A stretch of 37,575 nucleotides of DNA from assembly GCA_003230615.1 (NCBI GenBank), contig QIFK01000085.1:1-37575 (forward strand). The letters run 5' to 3'. This document shows positions 29,016 through 36,670 of this stretch, one piece after another (position 1 is the first letter of the stretch; each line of letters starts with the position of its first letter). The notes beneath the pieces were generated by a model. It made no database searches and was not told where the DNA came from. It was given only the letters and a program-made list of their open reading frames with translations. The position numbers and the translations under genes are program-made. Source of the DNA: Nitrosospira sp. Lineage in GTDB: Bacteria > Pseudomonadota > Gammaproteobacteria > Burkholderiales > Nitrosomonadaceae.

Positions 29016-30170
29016 ATGAATGAAAAATCTAGTCTACCAATTACAGCAGCGATTACTGTGCATCCAGTTACAAATCGTCATGAATTAAGAACATTCATTG
29101 ATATTCCATGGCGTGTTTACTCAGATGATCCCATGTGGGTGCCGCCGTTACGTCTCGAGAGACGCCTGCACTTTTCCAAATTTAATCCATATTTTAAACA
29201 TGCAGAATGGCAAGCATGGATTGCATACCGGGGTAATCTGCCGGTTGGGAGGATTAGTGCTCAAATAGATCAACTCCATCGTCAACGCTATGGTGCAGAT
29301 ACTGGTCATTTTGGCTTGCTAGAAAGCGTGGAGGATACAGAGGTATTCGCAGCACTTACGTACACTGCTGAGTCATGGCTTTCTGAGAGAAACACCAAGT
29401 ATGTTAGCGGACCGTTTAATTTTTCTATCAATCAAGAGTGCGGTGTCCTCGTAGACGGGTTTGATACACCTCCAATGGTCATGATGCCGCATTCGCCTAA
29501 ATGGTATGGGCGCTTACTTGAAGAACGAGGCTATCAACCGTTGAAGGATCTGCTTGCGTATTGGGTGAATTTGGACTTTAAGGTTCCCCAATTCATGCGT
29601 ACTTTGTTGGGGAAGTTTTCTAGTCGGATACATCTGAGAATGATACGCCGCAATCAATTTAAAGCAGAAATGGAGATATTACGTGATATTTTCAATGATG
29701 CTTGGTCAGATAACTGGGGCTTCATTCCATTTACTGAGGCAGAATTTTCCGAGCTTGGAAGCGTATTTCGTATACTTCTGAGGGATGAATATATGTGGAT
29801 TGCTGAGGTTGATGGTGTTCCAGCGGCTTTTTTGGTGGCGATCCCAAATTTGAATGAGATCTTTGCCAAATTTAATGGAAATCTCTTCCCTAACAACTGG
29901 CTCCGCTTGTATAAGCATGTTAAATACAGTGAATTTAGTTCGATCCGGGTGCCGTTGATGGGTGTGCGTAAGCAATTCCGAAATACTCCCTTGGGTATAA
30001 CGCTAGCTTTCATGGTGATTGATGTGCCACGACAACGTCCGCTTGCCATGGGAATACGAGAGGCTGAATTGTCCTGGATACTTGAGGATAATATAGCAAT
30101 GCGTACAATGCTCAATAGCATTGGTAGTAAGGAGTATAAGCGTTATCGAATCTATGGAAAAAAGTTGTAA
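29016..30170 (+). CDS. GNAT-fold acyltransferase-like protein (possible bacterial ceramide-synthase type)
   Basis: A 384-residue protein of a GNAT-related family. The N-terminal region (about 33-85) has WRVYSDDPMWVPPLRLE, NPYFKHAEWQAWIA and LPVGRISAQID, and the C-terminal half (about 215-370) looks like a second acetyltransferase-like fold. No signal peptide or membrane segment is seen. Members are often labelled just N-acetyltransferase. From memory, the ceramide synthase of Caulobacter belongs to this kind of protein, which N-acylates a sphingoid base; I could not verify orthology. It heads the plus-strand lipid cassette, 46 bp before the nucleotidyltransferase gene. No clear ribosome binding site precedes the ATG. 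Confidence 0.6.
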   Translation: MNEKSSLPITAAITVHPVTNRHELRTFIDIPWRVYSDDPMWVPPLRLERRLHFSKFNPYFKHAEWQAWIAYRGNLPVGRISAQIDQLHRQRYGADTGHFGLLESVEDTEVFAALTYTAESWLSERNTKYVSGPFNFSINQECGVLVDGFDTPPMVMMPHSPKWYGRLLEERGYQPLKDLLAYWVNLDFKVPQFMRTLLGKFSSRIHLRMIRRNQFKAEMEILRDIFNDAWSDNWGFIPFTEAEFSELGSVFRILLRDEYMWIAEVDGVPAAFLVAIPNLNEIFAKFNGNLFPNNWLRLYKHVKYSEFSSIRVPLMGVRKQFRNTPLGITLAFMVIDVPRQRPLAMGIREAELSWILEDNIAMRTMLNSIGSKEYKRYRIYGKKL

Positions 30171-30216
30171 TCAAATTTTTTGAGAGACAATCTAATGTTT
30201 CAAATTCAAATTTCAA

Positions 30217-31047
30217 GTGAAAAAAATAGATAAATTTGTCGCTCTGGTACTGGCTGCAGATCGTACGGCTAACGACCCTGTTGCCATCAAATCAGGTATG
30301 GTCTGCAAAGCATTCGCACCGATCTGTGGGATACCAATGATAATTCGTGTACTAGATGCGCTTGAGGCAAGCGGTATGATTAGATCGATTATTTTATGCG
30401 GTCCACCCGAATCCATGCTCCCTGGATGTACGGAATTGGAGCAACGGATAGGACGTGGGGATATAACCTGGGTACCCAACCTTGATTCTCCCAGCCGCAG
30501 TGCCAATAGGGGGCTTGAGCATATAGATGAGGGCGTTCCAGTATTATTAACAACGGCTGACCATGCCTTATTGACACCTGAAATCGTGCAGTATTTTTTA
30601 CGTGAGTCTAGTAAAGCGGATAGTGATGCTACTGTGGGATTAGTTAAACATGAAAATGTCATGGCTAAATTTCCAGGCACTAAGCGTACCGTAATACGGT
30701 TTCGTGATGGAAACTTTTGTGGTTGTAACCTCTATACTTTTCTTAACCACCATGGTCGTGATTTGGTTTCATTCTGGAGACGAGCAGAAGATTTGCGCAA
30801 ACACCCTTGGCGATTAGTTGGGGAGATACTGGGTCCAATGGCTATTTTGTTATATCTACTCAGGATATCAACACTTAATCAAGCGCTGAACGCTGTGTCG
30901 GCTAAAGCCGGCGTTAGATCACGGGCAGTTATCATCCCCTATGCTCGGGCTGGTGTCGATGTAGATAAGGCGGAGGATATAGTGCTTGTAGAATCTATTT
31001 TGGAGGAAGCAATGCCCCTATCTTTTAATAAGAATGGAACCTCGTAG
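30217..31047 (+). CDS. MobA-like nucleotidyltransferase
   Basis: A 276-residue protein with a nucleotidyltransferase (GT-A-like) fold. The N-terminus VALVLAADRTANDPVA...CKAFAPICGIPMIIRVLDAL corresponds to the NTP-binding loop, with a modified glycine-rich motif, and LLTTADHALLTPE (about 108-120) supplies the metal-binding Asp region. It probably activates a phosphorylated small alcohol with CTP or another NTP. In this setting a polar-head precursor (for example phosphoglycerate, as reported for Caulobacter CpgD, or inositol phosphate) is the logical substrate. The start is GTG with no evident ribosome binding site. A hydrophobic stretch near 205-222 could give membrane association. Confidence 0.65.
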   Translation: MKKIDKFVALVLAADRTANDPVAIKSGMVCKAFAPICGIPMIIRVLDALEASGMIRSIILCGPPESMLPGCTELEQRIGRGDITWVPNLDSPSRSANRGLEHIDEGVPVLLTTADHALLTPEIVQYFLRESSKADSDATVGLVKHENVMAKFPGTKRTVIRFRDGNFCGCNLYTFLNHHGRDLVSFWRRAEDLRKHPWRLVGEILGPMAILLYLLRISTLNQALNAVSAKAGVRSRAVIIPYARAGVDVDKAEDIVLVESILEEAMPLSFNKNGTS

Positions 31048-31100
31048 CGTTTTCCCATGTAGCAAGATGATTGCATTCCAAGGTTTGCAAGAGAGAGTTT

Positions 31101-32177
31101 GTGAAAATAATTGAGAAATATATCATACGTGAGCTATTGATGCCGTTCACGGTGATTATGGCGATTCTGGTCGGGCTATTTTCTGCTTTAAGCAGTGCCA
31201 ATTTTTTGGCGGGGGCTGTGACAGAATCGGTTGGTATTGCCGGCATGCTGAAGTTAGTACTACTTAAGACTTTAATCGCCTTAGAAGTGCTTGTACCAGT
31301 CGCTCTCTATGTTGCCGTAATCATCGGTCTTGGCAGAATGAATAAGGACCAAGAAATTAACGTATTACGTTCTGCAGGTATTAGCGAACTGCGCATAATA
31401 TATTCTGTGCTTTTAGTTGCAATTCCAGTCGGGATTATCAGTGGCGCACTTTCTATGTTTGTTCGCCCTTGGGCTTATGAAGAGAATTATATTTTGAATG
31501 CGCAGGCAGAAGCTGAGTTAAATACAGACAATTTCCAAGCTGGACGTTTCTATGGAAGCGAAAAAAGTGGCAGAGTAGTTTATATTAACTCTAAGGATGA
31601 ATCTGGTAAGCAGATGAGACAAATATTTCACTACATTAATGGAATTAACGGAAGGGAGATCCTGGTCGCTCAGGAGGGGATACAACAAAAGCCAGCTCGA
31701 GGTCATCGACCCCAAATACATTTATTCAACGGCCATATTTATCGACTCTCCCACTCTTCGACAAAAGATACTGTTACTCATTTTGGAAAACTAGTCTACT
31801 TCACTGATAGTGGTAATGAGCTAGATTACAAGCGAAAATCTGCCTCCACCATGGTGCTGATGAACTCGAGTCAACCACGTGAAATTGCCGAACTTCAATG
31901 GCGTCTTTCTCGACCTATAGCAACAGTTTTACTAGCTCTGATTGCCATACCATTTGCTCGTACTTCACCTCGACGAAAAGGGGGGGAGAGAGTCTTTTTT
32001 GTTGCAGCTCTTGTTTTTGCAATCTATTACATTTTGAACGGGTTGGCCCAAACGTGGGTGGAGCAGGGGATAATAGGTAGCGTACCTGGAGTTTGGTGGT
32101 TATACATTTTCATGCTCATTATTTCACTTAATTTGCTTTTCCCTGATTCCTGGAGACGGTTATTTCGTTCTAGATGA
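31101..32177 (+). CDS. lptF: LptF/YjgP-family permease
   Basis: An inner-membrane subunit of the LptB2FG-type extractor. The protein is 358 residues from GTG 31101 (MKIIEKYIIRELLMPF); an in-frame TTG at 31071 is less likely. It has three membrane segments at each end and a periplasmic beta-jellyroll of about 140 residues between them (about 125-265), the standard LptF layout. SAGISELRIIYSVLL is the cytoplasmic coupling-helix region. The stop overlaps the lptG start by 4 bp. In most betaproteobacteria lptF lies beside pepA; here it sits inside a lipid-synthesis cassette, so it may be the normal lipopolysaccharide exporter or a second copy for another lipid. Confidence 0.85.
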   Translation: MKIIEKYIIRELLMPFTVIMAILVGLFSALSSANFLAGAVTESVGIAGMLKLVLLKTLIALEVLVPVALYVAVIIGLGRMNKDQEINVLRSAGISELRIIYSVLLVAIPVGIISGALSMFVRPWAYEENYILNAQAEAELNTDNFQAGRFYGSEKSGRVVYINSKDESGKQMRQIFHYINGINGREILVAQEGIQQKPARGHRPQIHLFNGHIYRLSHSSTKDTVTHFGKLVYFTDSGNELDYKRKSASTMVLMNSSQPREIAELQWRLSRPIATVLLALIAIPFARTSPRRKGGERVFFVAALVFAIYYILNGLAQTWVEQGIIGSVPGVWWLYIFMLIISLNLLFPDSWRRLFRSR

Positions 32178-33259
32178 TCTTAATAATAAATCGATATCTT
32201 GCTTTTCAGGTTTTTATTGGCCTGTGTATTGCTACAGCGGTACTTTTGCCATTGATGGGTTTCCTAGATTTGTTAGGTCAACTCGATGATGTGGGTAAAA
32301 TGTCATATGAGCGCAAAGAGCTATATCGTGTCAAAGATGCTTTCCTGCACACTGCGCTAATGTTGCCACGCAGGTTAATTCAACTTGCTCCATTTATTGC
32401 ATTATTGGGTACTGTAATCGCATTAGGGCGATTAGCCATTAATTTAGAACTTACCGCATTACGAGTGGCGGGTATTTCTCCCACTCGTTTAAGCTTGGCT
32501 CCACTCGTAGTTGGCCTAATCTTTGTACTATTTATTGCCATACTGGAACAATTTGTTGCACCACAATTTCAGCAGAAGGCCCTTTTACAACGAGCTGTAG
32601 TGCTTGAGCAGAGCGTACATCTTGGTAAAAATCTTGGTATTTGGACACGAAACGAAAAAAATATATTACGTATTGGTGAGATGCTAAATGATAAGAGGGT
32701 GATAAATGTAGAGGTGTTACATTTTGATGACAACGGTGCTCTGCTAACTTATACCCATGCAAAATATGCCGACATCATTGATGACAATTTGTGGGAATTA
32801 AGGGAAGTAATTACTAAGACGTTTACAGAGAATCAAATTGTATCTGTAAGCACTAGTTCGATGAGTTGGAAATCATTCCTAAATCCAAGCGATATCTCGA
32901 CTTTAAATAAAACACCGGAGAGTCTGTCACCTCTTGAATTATTTCAACATGTACGTTTCTTACGAACTACAGGCCAAGAAGCGGATGCATATGCACTTGC
33001 TTTGTGGCGAAAAGCTGGAGGGGGCTTCACAACTATTGCAATGTTGCTCCTTTCCATACCTTTTGTTCTAGGATCTACTAGAGCTGGTATGGCCAACAAG
33101 TTGGTGCTTGCAGCCATGGCCGGCATTTGTGTCTATTTACTTGATCAGATTATAGCAAACGCTGGCCTGTTGTTACATTTGAACCCAGCTCTGACCGCTC
33201 TATTCCCAGGATTAGCGCTGATCGTCTTAGCTAATTTTTGGTTACGTAGGATTCCTTAG
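32174..33259 (+). CDS. lptG: LptG/YjgQ-family permease
   Basis: The partner of the preceding LptF protein (361 residues). Membrane segments are near 10-35, 65-85, 100-125 and, after the periplasmic domain (about 135-270), near 280-355. The coupling region LTALRVAGISPTRLS matches the family. The ATGA overlap with lptF implies coupled translation and an equimolar LptFG heterodimer that would need the LptB ATPase, not encoded here. A 200-bp spacer with an inverted repeat follows before the CDP-alcohol phosphatidyltransferase gene. Confidence 0.87.
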   Translation: MILIINRYLAFQVFIGLCIATAVLLPLMGFLDLLGQLDDVGKMSYERKELYRVKDAFLHTALMLPRRLIQLAPFIALLGTVIALGRLAINLELTALRVAGISPTRLSLAPLVVGLIFVLFIAILEQFVAPQFQQKALLQRAVVLEQSVHLGKNLGIWTRNEKNILRIGEMLNDKRVINVEVLHFDDNGALLTYTHAKYADIIDDNLWELREVITKTFTENQIVSVSTSSMSWKSFLNPSDISTLNKTPESLSPLELFQHVRFLRTTGQEADAYALALWRKAGGGFTTIAMLLLSIPFVLGSTRAGMANKLVLAAMAGICVYLLDQIIANAGLLLHLNPALTALFPGLALIVLANFWLRRIP

Positions 33260-33339
33260 TTGTTTGCCCAGTATCCTTTGGTAGGACTATAAAGCACAAA
33301 AATTTATTTTTGGATGACTTGTTGTTGTGGTAGTAATGT

Positions 33340-33359
33340 CGCAGATAATGTAATCTGCG
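33340..33359 (+). terminator. 7-bp inverted repeat followed by T-tract after lptG (possible weak terminator)
   Basis: CGCAGAT and ATCTGCG flank a 6-nt loop (AATGTA), about 80 nt after the lptG stop. A run of five T begins about 6 nt beyond the stem. The distance weakens the terminator reading; a partial terminator or an operator for the next gene are alternatives. Confidence 0.35.
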
Positions 33360-33459
33360 TGGTCCTTTTTAACTAAATAGATATTATTGAATGTGTTGCA
33401 GAACCATATTTCATGATTTCAAGCCAAGATAATATCTAAAAATAATTTAAAACCCGGAA

Positions 33460-34683
33460 ATGGCGATTTTTATTTATATCATTGGTAATAGTGAGATTGA
33501 CGTTTGGGATCTAAGTGGTCGAGAACGTTTGCAACGTATGTTAAAGGTTTTCAAGAATCAGGTTACCCTGGTTGATGACCTTAGCATTGTTCCAGAGGGG
33601 GCGCAGGTTTTGTTTCTATGCGCGGATCATTTGTTTGATGCGAGAGTGTTATCAGCATTAGTCCACACGCGAAAGAATTTTATGTTGGTTAGTGATAGTG
33701 ACGAAACGGTTGCTATCTGCATTGCTGATGGCAGCGCACCTAATGTACTTGCGGATTTTCTAGGTGAAGGTAGGGGACATACTATCTCTACTTTTTCTCG
33801 CTACACACTAGATGACTTAAATGTAGAGCTTCAGCAAAAGAATCTGAAGAAGAAAGCTGCGCCCTACGTGCTATTTATTAGTAGTTCTAACTACAAGCTT
33901 CTCGAATCAGAATTGTTTGCCGGATCATACAAGGGTGTAACTGATTTAGTTACGAAATGGATCTGGCCTGTGCCTGCATTTTGGTTTACTCACCTTTGTG
34001 TGCGCATTGGTTTGCAGCCCAATCATGTCACTCTAATTAGTCTAGTATTTGCTGTGTTGACGGGGATTGCATTTTGGCATGGCAATTACAGTATAGGATT
34101 GGTTATGGGATGGATCATGACTTTCTTGGATACCGTGGATGGAAAATTGGCAAGGGTGACTGTTACTACGAGTCGCTTTGGTGATGTACTTGATCATGGT
34201 CTCGATATAATTCATCCGCCACTTTGGTATATGGCATGGGGCGTGGGTTTAACTGCAGTATCAATATCGATACCCGACTTGCAAATACTAATGTGGTTGA
34301 TGTTTATTGGTTATATAGGTGGCAGGGTATGTGAGGGGGTATTCCAGTTTTGGATAGGGTCATTTGATATGTTTATCTGGCGCAAGTTCGATTCATTTAA
34401 CCGGTTGATTACTGCCCGGCGCAACCCTAATCTGATATTGTTGACATGTAGTTGGTTGATAAATCAACCAGAACTTGGCTTTTTGTCGGTAGTTATATGG
34501 CAACTGCTCTCTACGGCTATTCTTGTTATGAGAGTAGTTTTTGGCTGGCGTGAAAGACGGCATTATGGCCCGTTGAAGTCGTGGTTTGAAGAAATCATCC
34601 AAAGCCGAGATGAACGAGAGCTGGCAGTACGGATTTTTACACGAACACCGGTTAGTATAAATGACAGAAGAGTTACGAATTAA
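33460..34683 (+). CDS. CDP-alcohol phosphatidyltransferase with N-terminal degenerate nucleotidyltransferase-like domain
   Basis: A 407-residue protein. Residues about 170-370 form a multi-pass CDP-alcohol phosphatidyltransferase domain with the full family signature: Asp224, Asp227-Gly228, Ala231-Arg232, Gly241, Asp245 and Asp249. Such enzymes displace CMP from a CDP-activated lipid or head group to build a phosphodiester. Residues 1-165 are an extra soluble domain that looks like a worn-down nucleotidyltransferase (LSGRERLQRML, VLFLCADHLFDARVLSALV), similar in layout to fused inositol-phosphate cytidylyltransferase/phosphotransferase enzymes, but lacking a recognisable NTP loop. The separate nucleotidyltransferase at 30217 may supply that activity. 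The end overlaps the kinase gene by 23 bp. Confidence 0.82.
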   Translation: MAIFIYIIGNSEIDVWDLSGRERLQRMLKVFKNQVTLVDDLSIVPEGAQVLFLCADHLFDARVLSALVHTRKNFMLVSDSDETVAICIADGSAPNVLADFLGEGRGHTISTFSRYTLDDLNVELQQKNLKKKAAPYVLFISSSNYKLLESELFAGSYKGVTDLVTKWIWPVPAFWFTHLCVRIGLQPNHVTLISLVFAVLTGIAFWHGNYSIGLVMGWIMTFLDTVDGKLARVTVTTSRFGDVLDHGLDIIHPPLWYMAWGVGLTAVSISIPDLQILMWLMFIGYIGGRVCEGVFQFWIGSFDMFIWRKFDSFNRLITARRNPNLILLTCSWLINQPELGFLSVVIWQLLSTAILVMRVVFGWRERRHYGPLKSWFEEIIQSRDERELAVRIFTRTPVSINDRRVTN

Positions 34684-35653
34684 AAAAATACAAATGGGAG
34701 GGGCTAAAATTGGCTTACTTTTCAACCCTCTAAGTGGACGATTTCGCAAGCGTAAGGGCGTAATAATGCATGTGTTGGAAGAAATTCCCGGTGTAATTAT
34801 TCAAGAAGCTACGAGTGCTGATGAGTTTAATGCAACAGTGAGCGATTTCATGGCTACTGGTATTGATTTGCTGGTAATTGCAGGTGGAGATGGTACTGTA
34901 CAGGCAGTTATAAATCATTTGTTTATAACGCATCCTCTTGAAAATTGGCCGATTCTTGCAATATTACCCGGTGGCACGACCAATATGACGGCGCTTGATT
35001 TAATTAGTCACGATGTCCCAGAAGACGCTGCACGAAATTTAAGCAAATACTTGTTGACTCGGACATTACCCTCATTAGTACGACGACATGTATTGTGTAT
35101 AGAGCAAACAGGTTCTGTTAAAGTGTATGGTATGTTTTTCGGAGTTGGTATTATTGCTCGTGCTGTAATATTCTCCAGAAGCAGGATCAAGCAAATAGGA
35201 ATCACTGGAGAAGTTTATTCAGGCTTAATCATGTTTGGTTATATTGTTGGATTGATTCTTGGGTGCCGCAAAGGGGCATGGGCGCCAGCACAGACGACAA
35301 CGATCAGGGTAGGTGAAAAGACTTGCAATGGTGCCCAATTGATTTTGTTTGCCAGTACGCTTGATCGCTTGCTATTTAATATGCATCCGTACTGGGGACA
35401 GGAGCAGGAACCGATTCATGTTACATTTATCGAGCAGCGTCAGAAAAATCTTTTACGATCGATACCTTCAATAATTTCAGGAAAAGGTGCGACTCTCAAG
35501 GAGCATGACGGTTATCATAGTCACAACAGCAGTACGCTGGAGCTAGCGATAGATGACGATTATATTGTTGACGGTGAATCTTACCGAGCAGCAAGTCAGA
35601 ACGGGCCGTTAAAGATTTCGGCAGCTGGCCCTATCACTTTCCTGACTTGGTAG
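34661..35653 (+). CDS. Diacylglycerol / sphingoid-base kinase family protein
   Basis: A 330-residue lipid kinase of the DAGK catalytic (YegS/LCB5) family. Visible motifs are NPLSG (22-26), the ATP-binding GGDGT (75-79) and LPGGTTNMTA (about 102-111). The C-terminal beta-sandwich region ends DDDYIVDGE. The family phosphorylates diacylglycerol, ceramide or sphingosine-like bases; the sequence alone does not tell which. In Caulobacter a member acts as a ceramide kinase. The ATG overlaps the preceding gene by 23 bp; an internal ATG at 34694 would remove the overlap, but neither start has a ribosome binding site. A 30-bp spacer leads to the Tam41-like gene. Confidence 0.8.
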   Translation: MTEELRIKKIQMGGAKIGLLFNPLSGRFRKRKGVIMHVLEEIPGVIIQEATSADEFNATVSDFMATGIDLLVIAGGDGTVQAVINHLFITHPLENWPILAILPGGTTNMTALDLISHDVPEDAARNLSKYLLTRTLPSLVRRHVLCIEQTGSVKVYGMFFGVGIIARAVIFSRSRIKQIGITGEVYSGLIMFGYIVGLILGCRKGAWAPAQTTTIRVGEKTCNGAQLILFASTLDRLLFNMHPYWGQEQEPIHVTFIEQRQKNLLRSIPSIISGKGATLKEHDGYHSHNSSTLELAIDDDYIVDGESYRAASQNGPLKISAAGPITFLTW

Positions 35654-35683
35654 TACACAAACGGATTTCACGGACCTGTATCA

Positions 35684-36670
35684 ATGACAGATCATGTATC
35701 AACATTGGATAGAAAGATCCCGGATAGCTTAGTTTCCGAAGTCGCATCTATAGGATCAAGGGATGTGTCGGAAGATTTTTCAATCTTTGTTGAAGAACTG
35801 AAATCACGTTTTGAGTCATCACTAGATGCCATTATTCTTTATGGGTCTTGTTTGCGTTCCTATGAAATTGGCGATGGGGTAGTTGATTTTTATACCGTGG
35901 TGGACGATTATAGCAATGCTTACCAAGAACATTACTTGCGCTATTTCAATGCATGGTTACCGCCGAATGTGTTTTATCTTGAGGTATCTAGGCAGGAGAA
36001 AACATTTCGTGCTAAATATGCAGTTATTTCAATAGCAGACTTCGAGAAAGGAAACCAATATTGGTTTCATTCGTACCTATGGGCACGTTTTGCTCAACCT
36101 GTGCGGTTATTGTATGTTCGAAATGAAGCTATTCACCAGCGTGTTTACTATTCATTAGCGCATGCAGTAGTTGCATTTCTTACCCCTACTATTTCGGTGT
36201 TGGGCCCGCGTGTAATAACTGTGGAAGAAATTTGGGTCAGGGGTTTGACTCTCACCTATGCGGCTGAACTTAGGCCTGAGCAGGAATCGCGTGCTTGTCA
36301 GCTTGCTAAACTCAATTTGGATGATTACATAAGGCTGACCGAATATGCTTTGCCTTCTCTGGTGGGAATACTTGAGAAATTGCCGGAGGAGCATCAAGGA
36401 CAAGTCCACTACCGATGCTTAACTGATGAGGCTGAGCGCCGAAATTCTTTGAGGCGTTGGCGATTGCGTCGTTGGCAGGGACGGGTTCTTTCCGTGCTTC
36501 GGCTGATAAAGGCGACATTTACCTTCCGGGACTGTATTGATTATGCCGCATGGAAGATCGAACGTCACACTGGGATTCGTATTGAAGTTACTCCAAAACT
36601 ACGCCGTCATCCAGTATTATGGGGCTATAAAGTTTTTTGGAAACTATTGCGACGCGGTGTATTACGATAA
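35684..36670 (+). CDS. Tam41-like nucleotidyltransferase (possible CTP:phosphatidate-type cytidylyltransferase)
   Basis: A 328-residue protein with a nucleotidyltransferase core: YGS (53-55) then VDFYTVVDD (67-75) with the metal-binding acids. Further blocks match my recollection of Tam41/Mmp37, the mitochondrial CDP-diacylglycerol synthase: EHYLRYFNAW (about 82-91), KYAVIS (111-116), LWARFAQPV (132-140), then a helical C-terminus (IKATFTFRD). Unlike CdsA it has no membrane bundle. It could convert the product of the adjacent kinase (phosphatidate or ceramide-1-phosphate) into its CDP-activated form for the phosphatidyltransferase two genes upstream. The C-terminus is very basic, which suits membrane binding. 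The assignment needs a profile search. Confidence 0.65.
   Translation: MTDHVSTLDRKIPDSLVSEVASIGSRDVSEDFSIFVEELKSRFESSLDAIILYGSCLRSYEIGDGVVDFYTVVDDYSNAYQEHYLRYFNAWLPPNVFYLEVSRQEKTFRAKYAVISIADFEKGNQYWFHSYLWARFAQPVRLLYVRNEAIHQRVYYSLAHAVVAFLTPTISVLGPRVITVEEIWVRGLTLTYAAELRPEQESRACQLAKLNLDDYIRLTEYALPSLVGILEKLPEEHQGQVHYRCLTDEAERRNSLRRWRLRRWQGRVLSVLRLIKATFTFRDCIDYAAWKIERHTGIRIEVTPKLRRHPVLWGYKVFWKLLRRGVLR

Follow-up and report, generated by a model that had tools for sequence, protein, structure and literature searches.

A probable ceramide-phosphoglycerate-type lipid cassette in Nitrosospira sp. and the possible replacement of lipid A

Ceramide-phosphoglycerate (CPG) and CPG2 belong to a pathway described in Caulobacter crescentus and encoded at CC_1152-CC_1168 (PMC11324152, PMC12275187, PMC10331486). 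In 2024 it was suggested that CC_1161 makes a nucleoside diphosphate (NDP)-activated ceramide (PMC11324152), and papers of 2025 and 2026 leave the activation step open (PMC12275187, PMC13228409). The 2024 survey also covers Nitrosomonas eutropha: its Fig. 7 assigns at least 13 of the 17 Caulobacter genes to this species, spread over three genomic regions, and CC_1168 (LptC2), CC_1167, CC_1166 (flippase) and CC_1158 are lacking (PMC11324152). A 2010 paper described how N. europaea and Nitrosospira multiformis have lost lpx genes and ascribed this to genome reduction (PMC3087551); a limited literature search found no published link between this loss and a sphingolipid cassette. Here we describe a 37,575-nucleotide window of Nitrosospira sp. 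DNA (contig QIFK01000085.1), which is one entire contig of a 2.04-Mb draft genome (239 contigs, 95.6% complete) and has its nearest named relatives in the Nitrosomonadaceae (Nitrosospira, Nitrosovibrio and Nitrosomonas). Open reading frame (ORF) calling on the window revealed seven plus-strand genes in a conserved order at positions 29016-36670 (Table 1), and this cassette is the half of the known CPG/CPG2 pathway that provides headgroup and export. A first-pass annotation of the sequence had outlined a lipid kinase, cytidine triphosphate (CTP) activation, headgroup transfer and export by LptFG, a logic that proved largely right; the pathway itself is not new, since the cluster is the published Caulobacter system and N. 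eutropha had already been listed. As an explanation of the whole, we think it probable that the cassette makes a CPG-type headgroup and moves the lipid to the outer membrane, where it would stand in for lipid A.

The substrate of the cassette is expected to be ceramide because ceramide genes share the genome and gene 1 resembles YghO. Another host contig (C66) carries in one run a fatty acyl-AMP ligase (857.7 bits with NF006624, cut-off 600), a CerR-like epimerase-type reductase, an acyl carrier protein and a serine palmitoyltransferase (Spt). The spt gene scored 595.5 bits with the equivalog model NF047599 (cut-off 500), and the best match of Spt in the Protein Data Bank (PDB) was the bacterial serine palmitoyltransferase 2x8u (E 7e-122). 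Gene 1 matched no Pfam or NCBIfam family above cut-off and gave a weak GNAT match of 13 bits, and a PDB sequence search with CerS returned no match. Its likeness to YghO of E. coli BL21 extends over 373 amino acids at 45% identity, and in E. coli BL21(DE3) yghO adjoins aasR-cerR-acp-spt. The first-pass annotation had left the product as either a sphingolipid or a phosphatidyl-polyol and had named serine palmitoyltransferase and ceramide reductase as genes to look for in the genome. Both are present on C66. With the spt equivalog hit, the other ceramide genes, the YghO likeness and a complete co-occurrence with ceramide synthase (given below), the sphingolipid was retained and the phosphatidyl-polyol rejected.

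Two further observations concern spt clusters. In the host genome, a gene of the glycerophosphodiester phosphodiesterase family lies directly after spt (L012:3308-3964, on C66) and is possibly a counterpart of the CC_1158 phosphoesterase. In E. coli BL21(DE3), the spt cluster has an extra lptF/lptG pair (L180:9921-12067), annotated as lipopolysaccharide (LPS) export, directly beside spt, and no kinase or Tam41-like gene is annotated there.

Gene 7 is the candidate for the activation step. Its predicted structure (predicted local distance difference test, pLDDT, 91.7) matched Tam41 with bound CTP-Mg (7ecd) at Z 19.8 and a root-mean-square deviation (rmsd) of 2.8 over 225 residues, and 6ig4 at Z 16.9, with the next unrelated fold at Z 7.4. 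When PDB sequences were searched with the profile of the Tam41-like protein, no Tam41 chain was returned, and the likeness surfaced only in the fold comparison. All 20 relatives compared share Tyr53-Gly54, Leu57, Asp68 and Lys111, and Ser55 is almost invariant among them. Against Tam41_Mmp37 (PF09139) the protein scored 18.0 bits, below the cut-off of 24, and was not counted as a family member; the earlier description of the last gene as Tam41-like thus holds for the fold and fails for membership in PF09139. Among 398 Pseudomonadota genomes, the Tam41-like gene was found in 27 and ceramide synthase in 43, and all 27 lie within the 43 (Fisher P about 5e-31, uncorrected for relatedness). The Tam41-like gene is located between ceramide kinase and spt in Alphaproteobacteria, and the kinase and the Tam41-like protein form a single 682-amino-acid frame in a Nitrosomonas metagenome-assembled genome (MAG; L063:8948-10993) and in Nitrosomonas supralitoralis (L071:8927-10972). 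Together, the modelled fold, the co-occurrence and the kinase fusion support cytidine diphosphate (CDP)-ceramide as the likely activated intermediate. Because of the fold, the conserved residues and the fusion, we favour consecutive action of genes 6 and 7, from ceramide to ceramide-1-phosphate to CDP-ceramide, the last being the presumed product. Activation by a Tam41-like enzyme had been put forward in the first-pass annotation as a new idea, but NDP-activated ceramide made by CC_1161 was proposed before it (PMC11324152).

The remaining enzymes of the cassette were recognised by family profiles and motifs. Gene 6, directly upstream of the Tam41-like gene, scored 58.9 bits with DAGK_cat (cut-off 23.6) and has a GGDGT motif at 75-79; at least 95% of 63 homologues retain G76-D77-G78-T79. 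Gene 5 scored 36.3 bits with CDP-OH_P_transf (PF01066; cut-off 22), and its motif D224xxD227G228xxA231R232(8)G241xxxD245xxxD249 is intact, every motif position being invariant in 28 homologues. The gene 5 model (pLDDT 87.3) matched the AF2299 CDP-alcohol phosphotransferase at Z 22.4 and rmsd 3.7 over 320 residues and the AF IPCT-DIPPS fusion at Z 19.9; as in AF2299, there is an N-terminal cytidylyltransferase-like domain. Gene 5 is also 44% identical to the CDP-alcohol transferase of a sphingolipid cluster on Pseudomonas plasmid pPNP1, which adjoins a CpgD-like gene. Gene 2 scored 49.3 bits with NTP_transf_3 (cut-off 27), and its R16, K31 and D115, each of which at least 95% of 43 homologues retain, resemble R16, K26 and D112 of CpgD (PMC12275187). 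It is 45% identical to the nucleotidyltransferase adjoining lptF on pPNP1 and gave no match to the LicC/CpgD-like protein of that cluster. The earlier comparison of gene 2 with the Caulobacter cytidylyltransferase has to be given up, for gene 2 is CC_1153-like by position rather than a CpgD/LicC-like enzyme.

The export genes connect the cassette with the apparent absence of lipid A synthesis. LptF scored 308.5 bits with TIGR04407 (equivalog cut-off 230), the match starting at residue 13 (listed start TTG), and LptG scored 293.1 bits with TIGR04408 (equivalog cut-off 240). The only LptF and the only LptG of the host genome are encoded inside the cassette, and the genome retains one LptD. Profile searches found no LpxC in the host genome, in a single-contig, 100% complete relative (G102) or in ten further Nitrosomonadaceae-type genomes. 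Across 25 cassette-bearing genomes, the 16 without LpxC have one LptFG pair and the nine with LpxC have two, and LptD is present in all 25. The same LpxC model finds the protein in 361 of the 398 Pseudomonadota genomes, and ceramide synthase occurs in 27 of 29 good-quality LpxC-less genomes compared with 16 of 309 that have LpxC. These 27 span eight families, but 18 belong to one family, and independent losses of LpxC are therefore far fewer than 27. LpxC is missing from 18 of the 27 genomes with the Tam41-like gene and from 19 of the 371 others.

In phylogenetic trees, host LptF falls in a clade made up of the cassette pairs of several phyla with support of 100/99, and LptG does likewise with 99/97. 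Both proteins of the Nitrosomonadaceae stand apart from the LPS-type pairs of other Betaproteobacteria in both trees, which rules out reuse of an old betaproteobacterial LPS pair. Very long branches occur in some rows of both trees. The cassette pairs of Alphaproteobacteria stand in a group of their own, distinct from the first, and the sphingolipid-type label therefore arose or moved at least twice. LpxC is missing, the one LptFG pair belongs to the sphingolipid type and LptD is kept. Judged from this gene content, the Lpt bridge in Nitrosomonadaceae most likely carries a sphingolipid as a complete lipid A substitute. Replacement of lipid A by a phosphosphingolipid with a dedicated LptFG pair is, as a prediction, well supported by gene content. 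We give about an even chance to a broader proposal, namely that in Nitrosomonadaceae and other LpxC-less Pseudomonadota a lipid made by way of Tam41-fold-produced CDP-ceramide has fully replaced lipid A and is the sole Lpt cargo, and that having a second cargo permitted the loss of lipid A.

A MAG titled Klebsiella pneumoniae (L072) groups with marine-type Gammaproteobacteria in the LptF and LptG trees, and its title is probably wrong.

In the pathway we propose, Spt, AcpR, AasR and CerR from C66, together with CerS (gene 1), would produce dihydroceramide, which gene 6 would phosphorylate to ceramide-1-phosphate. Gene 7 would use CTP to give CDP-ceramide, and acceptance of glycerate or phosphoglycerate would then yield CPG. 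Gene 5 may attach another CDP-activated group, which in Caulobacter is CDP-glycerate, and so form a CPG2-type lipid, and gene 2 may supply another nucleotide-activated intermediate. LptF and LptG, with the retained LptD, would bring the lipid to the outer leaflet in place of lipid A. The formation of dihydroceramide, its phosphorylation and the roles of genes 5 and 2 are modelled on the Caulobacter work; from the sequences we infer what gene 7 makes, which headgroup Nitrosomonadaceae use and that the sphingolipid is the sole Lpt cargo.

Several points weigh against this proposal. Gene 7 is sub-threshold for the Pfam Tam41 model, which only two of its 20 relatives match at all (E 0.1), and its putative orthology with CC_1161 is based on gene order and a published domain remark. 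Conversion of ceramide-1-phosphate to CPG by CpgC was still called unidentified in 2026 (PMC13228409), and CPG forms without CpgA in Caulobacter, so that some other enzyme may join glycerate to activated ceramide. No CpgD-like gene was found in the window or the examined parts of the host genome, no genome-wide search having been made. In addition, no CDP-alcohol phosphotransferase could be detected between the LptG and kinase genes of five Nitrosospira/Nitrosovibrio-type loci (L049, L050, L051, L054 and L055), and the headgroup may therefore vary within Nitrosomonadaceae. The lack of gene 5 there fits its Caulobacter role after CPG formation. It is conceivable, if somewhat doubtful, that the ceramide kinase and activation steps are as proposed and that the CDP-alcohol transferase adds inositol-phosphate or another polyol-phosphate instead of glycerate. 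The folds nearest to gene 5 include phosphatidylinositol-phosphate synthases (Z 19.5) as well as the inositol IPCT-DIPPS enzyme, and absence of a gene for the CpgD-like CDP-glycerate enzyme from the window agrees with such a headgroup. However, fold alone does not fix the alcohol substrate of gene 5, its pPNP1 relative adjoins a CpgD-like gene, and a LicC/CpgD-like gene is encoded downstream of the cassette in Nitrosospira sp. NpAV (L053, 13343-14152), while two more Nitrosomonadaceae loci (L048 and L056) have one at their edges.

Phosphatidate is the known substrate of Tam41, and the kinase family carries the name DAGK, as would be expected if the cassette made a glycerolipid, gene 7 were an ordinary CDP-diacylglycerol synthase, gene 6 were a diacylglycerol kinase and the link to ceramide were incidental. 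We consider this very improbable: all 27 genomes with a gene 7 homologue have ceramide synthase, no pair of genes 6 and 7 was seen without ceramide genes, the homologue is near spt in Alphaproteobacteria, the host itself has ceramide genes and the Caulobacter kinase at the position of gene 6 is a ceramide kinase (PMC10331486). It is also unlikely that lipid A is still made and shares the single LptFG pair, with LpxC divergent or lost in assembly gaps and the sphingolipid an extra lipid as in Caulobacter. The draft state of the host genome and the retention of LptD are consistent with this possibility, but LpxC is also missing from the complete single-contig relative and the ten further genomes, and the model used detects it in most of the 398 Pseudomonadota genomes. 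In an independent survey, the only lpx gene found in N. europaea was lpxK and the only one in Nitrosospira multiformis was lpxA (PMC3087551), and the sole remaining LptFG pair is of the sphingolipid type by both trees.

The gene order of the cassette is conserved in relatives, as a comparison of gene neighbourhoods suggested in the first-pass annotation made clear, and so the cassette is not a chance grouping. The comparison covered the best 80 named loci of a contig scan, and the order recurs in at least 80 named loci across several phyla; it is kept across Nitrosomonadaceae and occurs in rearranged form in Gammaproteobacteria, Alphaproteobacteria, Nitrospirota, deltaproteobacterial groups and others. 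In Kordiimonas, the kinase and Tam41-like genes are followed by one peptidase gene and then spt-acp-cerR-aasR, with CerS and LptGF nearby, an order that matches Caulobacter CC_1160-CC_1161-CC_1162 and onwards (PMC11324152). Plasmid pPNP1 of Pseudomonas sp. JS425 (L181) holds a nearly complete phosphosphingolipid cluster.

Some loci have features of their own. The pPNP1 cluster is near a class 1 integron with sul1, and an IS5 transposase occupies the expected site of the ceramide synthase gene. In Nitrospirales loci, the Tam41-like gene is followed by a second gene for a CDP-alcohol phosphotransferase (L081:11142-12392 and L085:11086-12381).

Table 1. Genes of the cassette and their positions in the 37,575-nucleotide window
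Feature	Position	Strand	Basis
cerS (gene 1), GNAT-type ceramide synthase (YghO / CC_1154 type), 384 aa	29016..30170	+	45% identity to YghO
gene 2, MobA-like nucleotidyltransferase, 276 aa, GTG start	30217..31047	+	NTP_transf_3; CC_1153-like by position, not CpgD
lptF (gene 3), sphingolipid-cassette type	31071..32177	+	TIGR04407; tree placement
lptG (gene 4), sphingolipid-cassette type	32174..33259	+	TIGR04408; tree placement
gene 5, CDP-alcohol phosphotransferase (CpgA / CC_1159 type), 407 aa	33460..34683	+	PF01066; motif; model
gene 6, ceramide kinase (CpgB / CC_1160 type), DAGK family, 330 aa	34661..35653	+	DAGK_cat; predicted substrate
gene 7, Tam41-fold cytidylyltransferase-like, 328 aa, proposed CDP-ceramide synthase	35684..36670	+	fold; CpgC / CC_1161 position

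The seven co-directional genes named in the first-pass annotation were all found as ORFs, and family profiles agree with the names of genes 2-6. Overlaps or short spacers at most joints were likewise borne out. Genes 1 and 2 are 46 bp apart and genes 2 and 3 are 23 bp apart; genes 3 and 4 overlap by 4 bp, genes 5 and 6 overlap by 23 bp, and 30 bp separate genes 6 and 7. The sole long spacer, of 200 bp, is ahead of the CDP-alcohol transferase gene. Promoter and terminator scans gave signals at shuffle level only and so do not mark operon limits. The upstream flank is of a housekeeping nature (topoisomerase III, a LysM protein, def-fmt-rsmB and carbon metabolism), and an FkbM methyltransferase gene lies downstream on the opposite strand.

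The Tam41 fold and the natural kinase fusion make CDP-ceramide a directly testable answer to the open CpgC step. The loss of LpxC together with a single sphingolipid-type LptFG pair makes the ammonia oxidisers a natural test of the Lpt machine on sphingolipid alone and, if our proposal is true, would explain how such environmentally important organisms manage without LPS. It is also a warning about annotation, as NCBI models label these permeases 'LPS export' in organisms apparently without LPS.

Sphingomonads have a glycosphingolipid instead of LPS in their Gram-negative outer membrane. The sphingomonad head is a glycan, whereas a phosphoglycerate-type head is predicted for the host; common to both would be a sphingolipid in the place of lipid A. 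Compared with the mitochondrial CDP-diacylglycerol synthase Tam41 (6IG2/6IG4, 7ECD), gene 7 has the fold over about 225 residues and the YGS and Asp motif. It differs in scoring below the Pfam cut-off, with about 16% identity over the aligned part, in having a helical C-terminal portion that the alignment does not cover and in accompanying ceramide genes. Nitrosomonas eutropha is a different member of the host's family, and the 2024 survey appears not to tie its genes to the absence of lipid A or to the number of LptFG pairs (PMC11324152). In comparison with Caulobacter crescentus, the host has its ceramide genes on another contig, only one LptFG pair and no LpxC, and the window holds no CpgD-like or phosphoesterase gene. 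Shared with the Caulobacter CC_1152-CC_1168 (cpgABCD) system are CerS, the nucleotidyltransferase, LptF2/LptG2, the CDP-alcohol transferase, the ceramide kinase, the CDP-diacylglycerol-synthase-like CC_1161 and Spt-AcpR-CerR-AasR.

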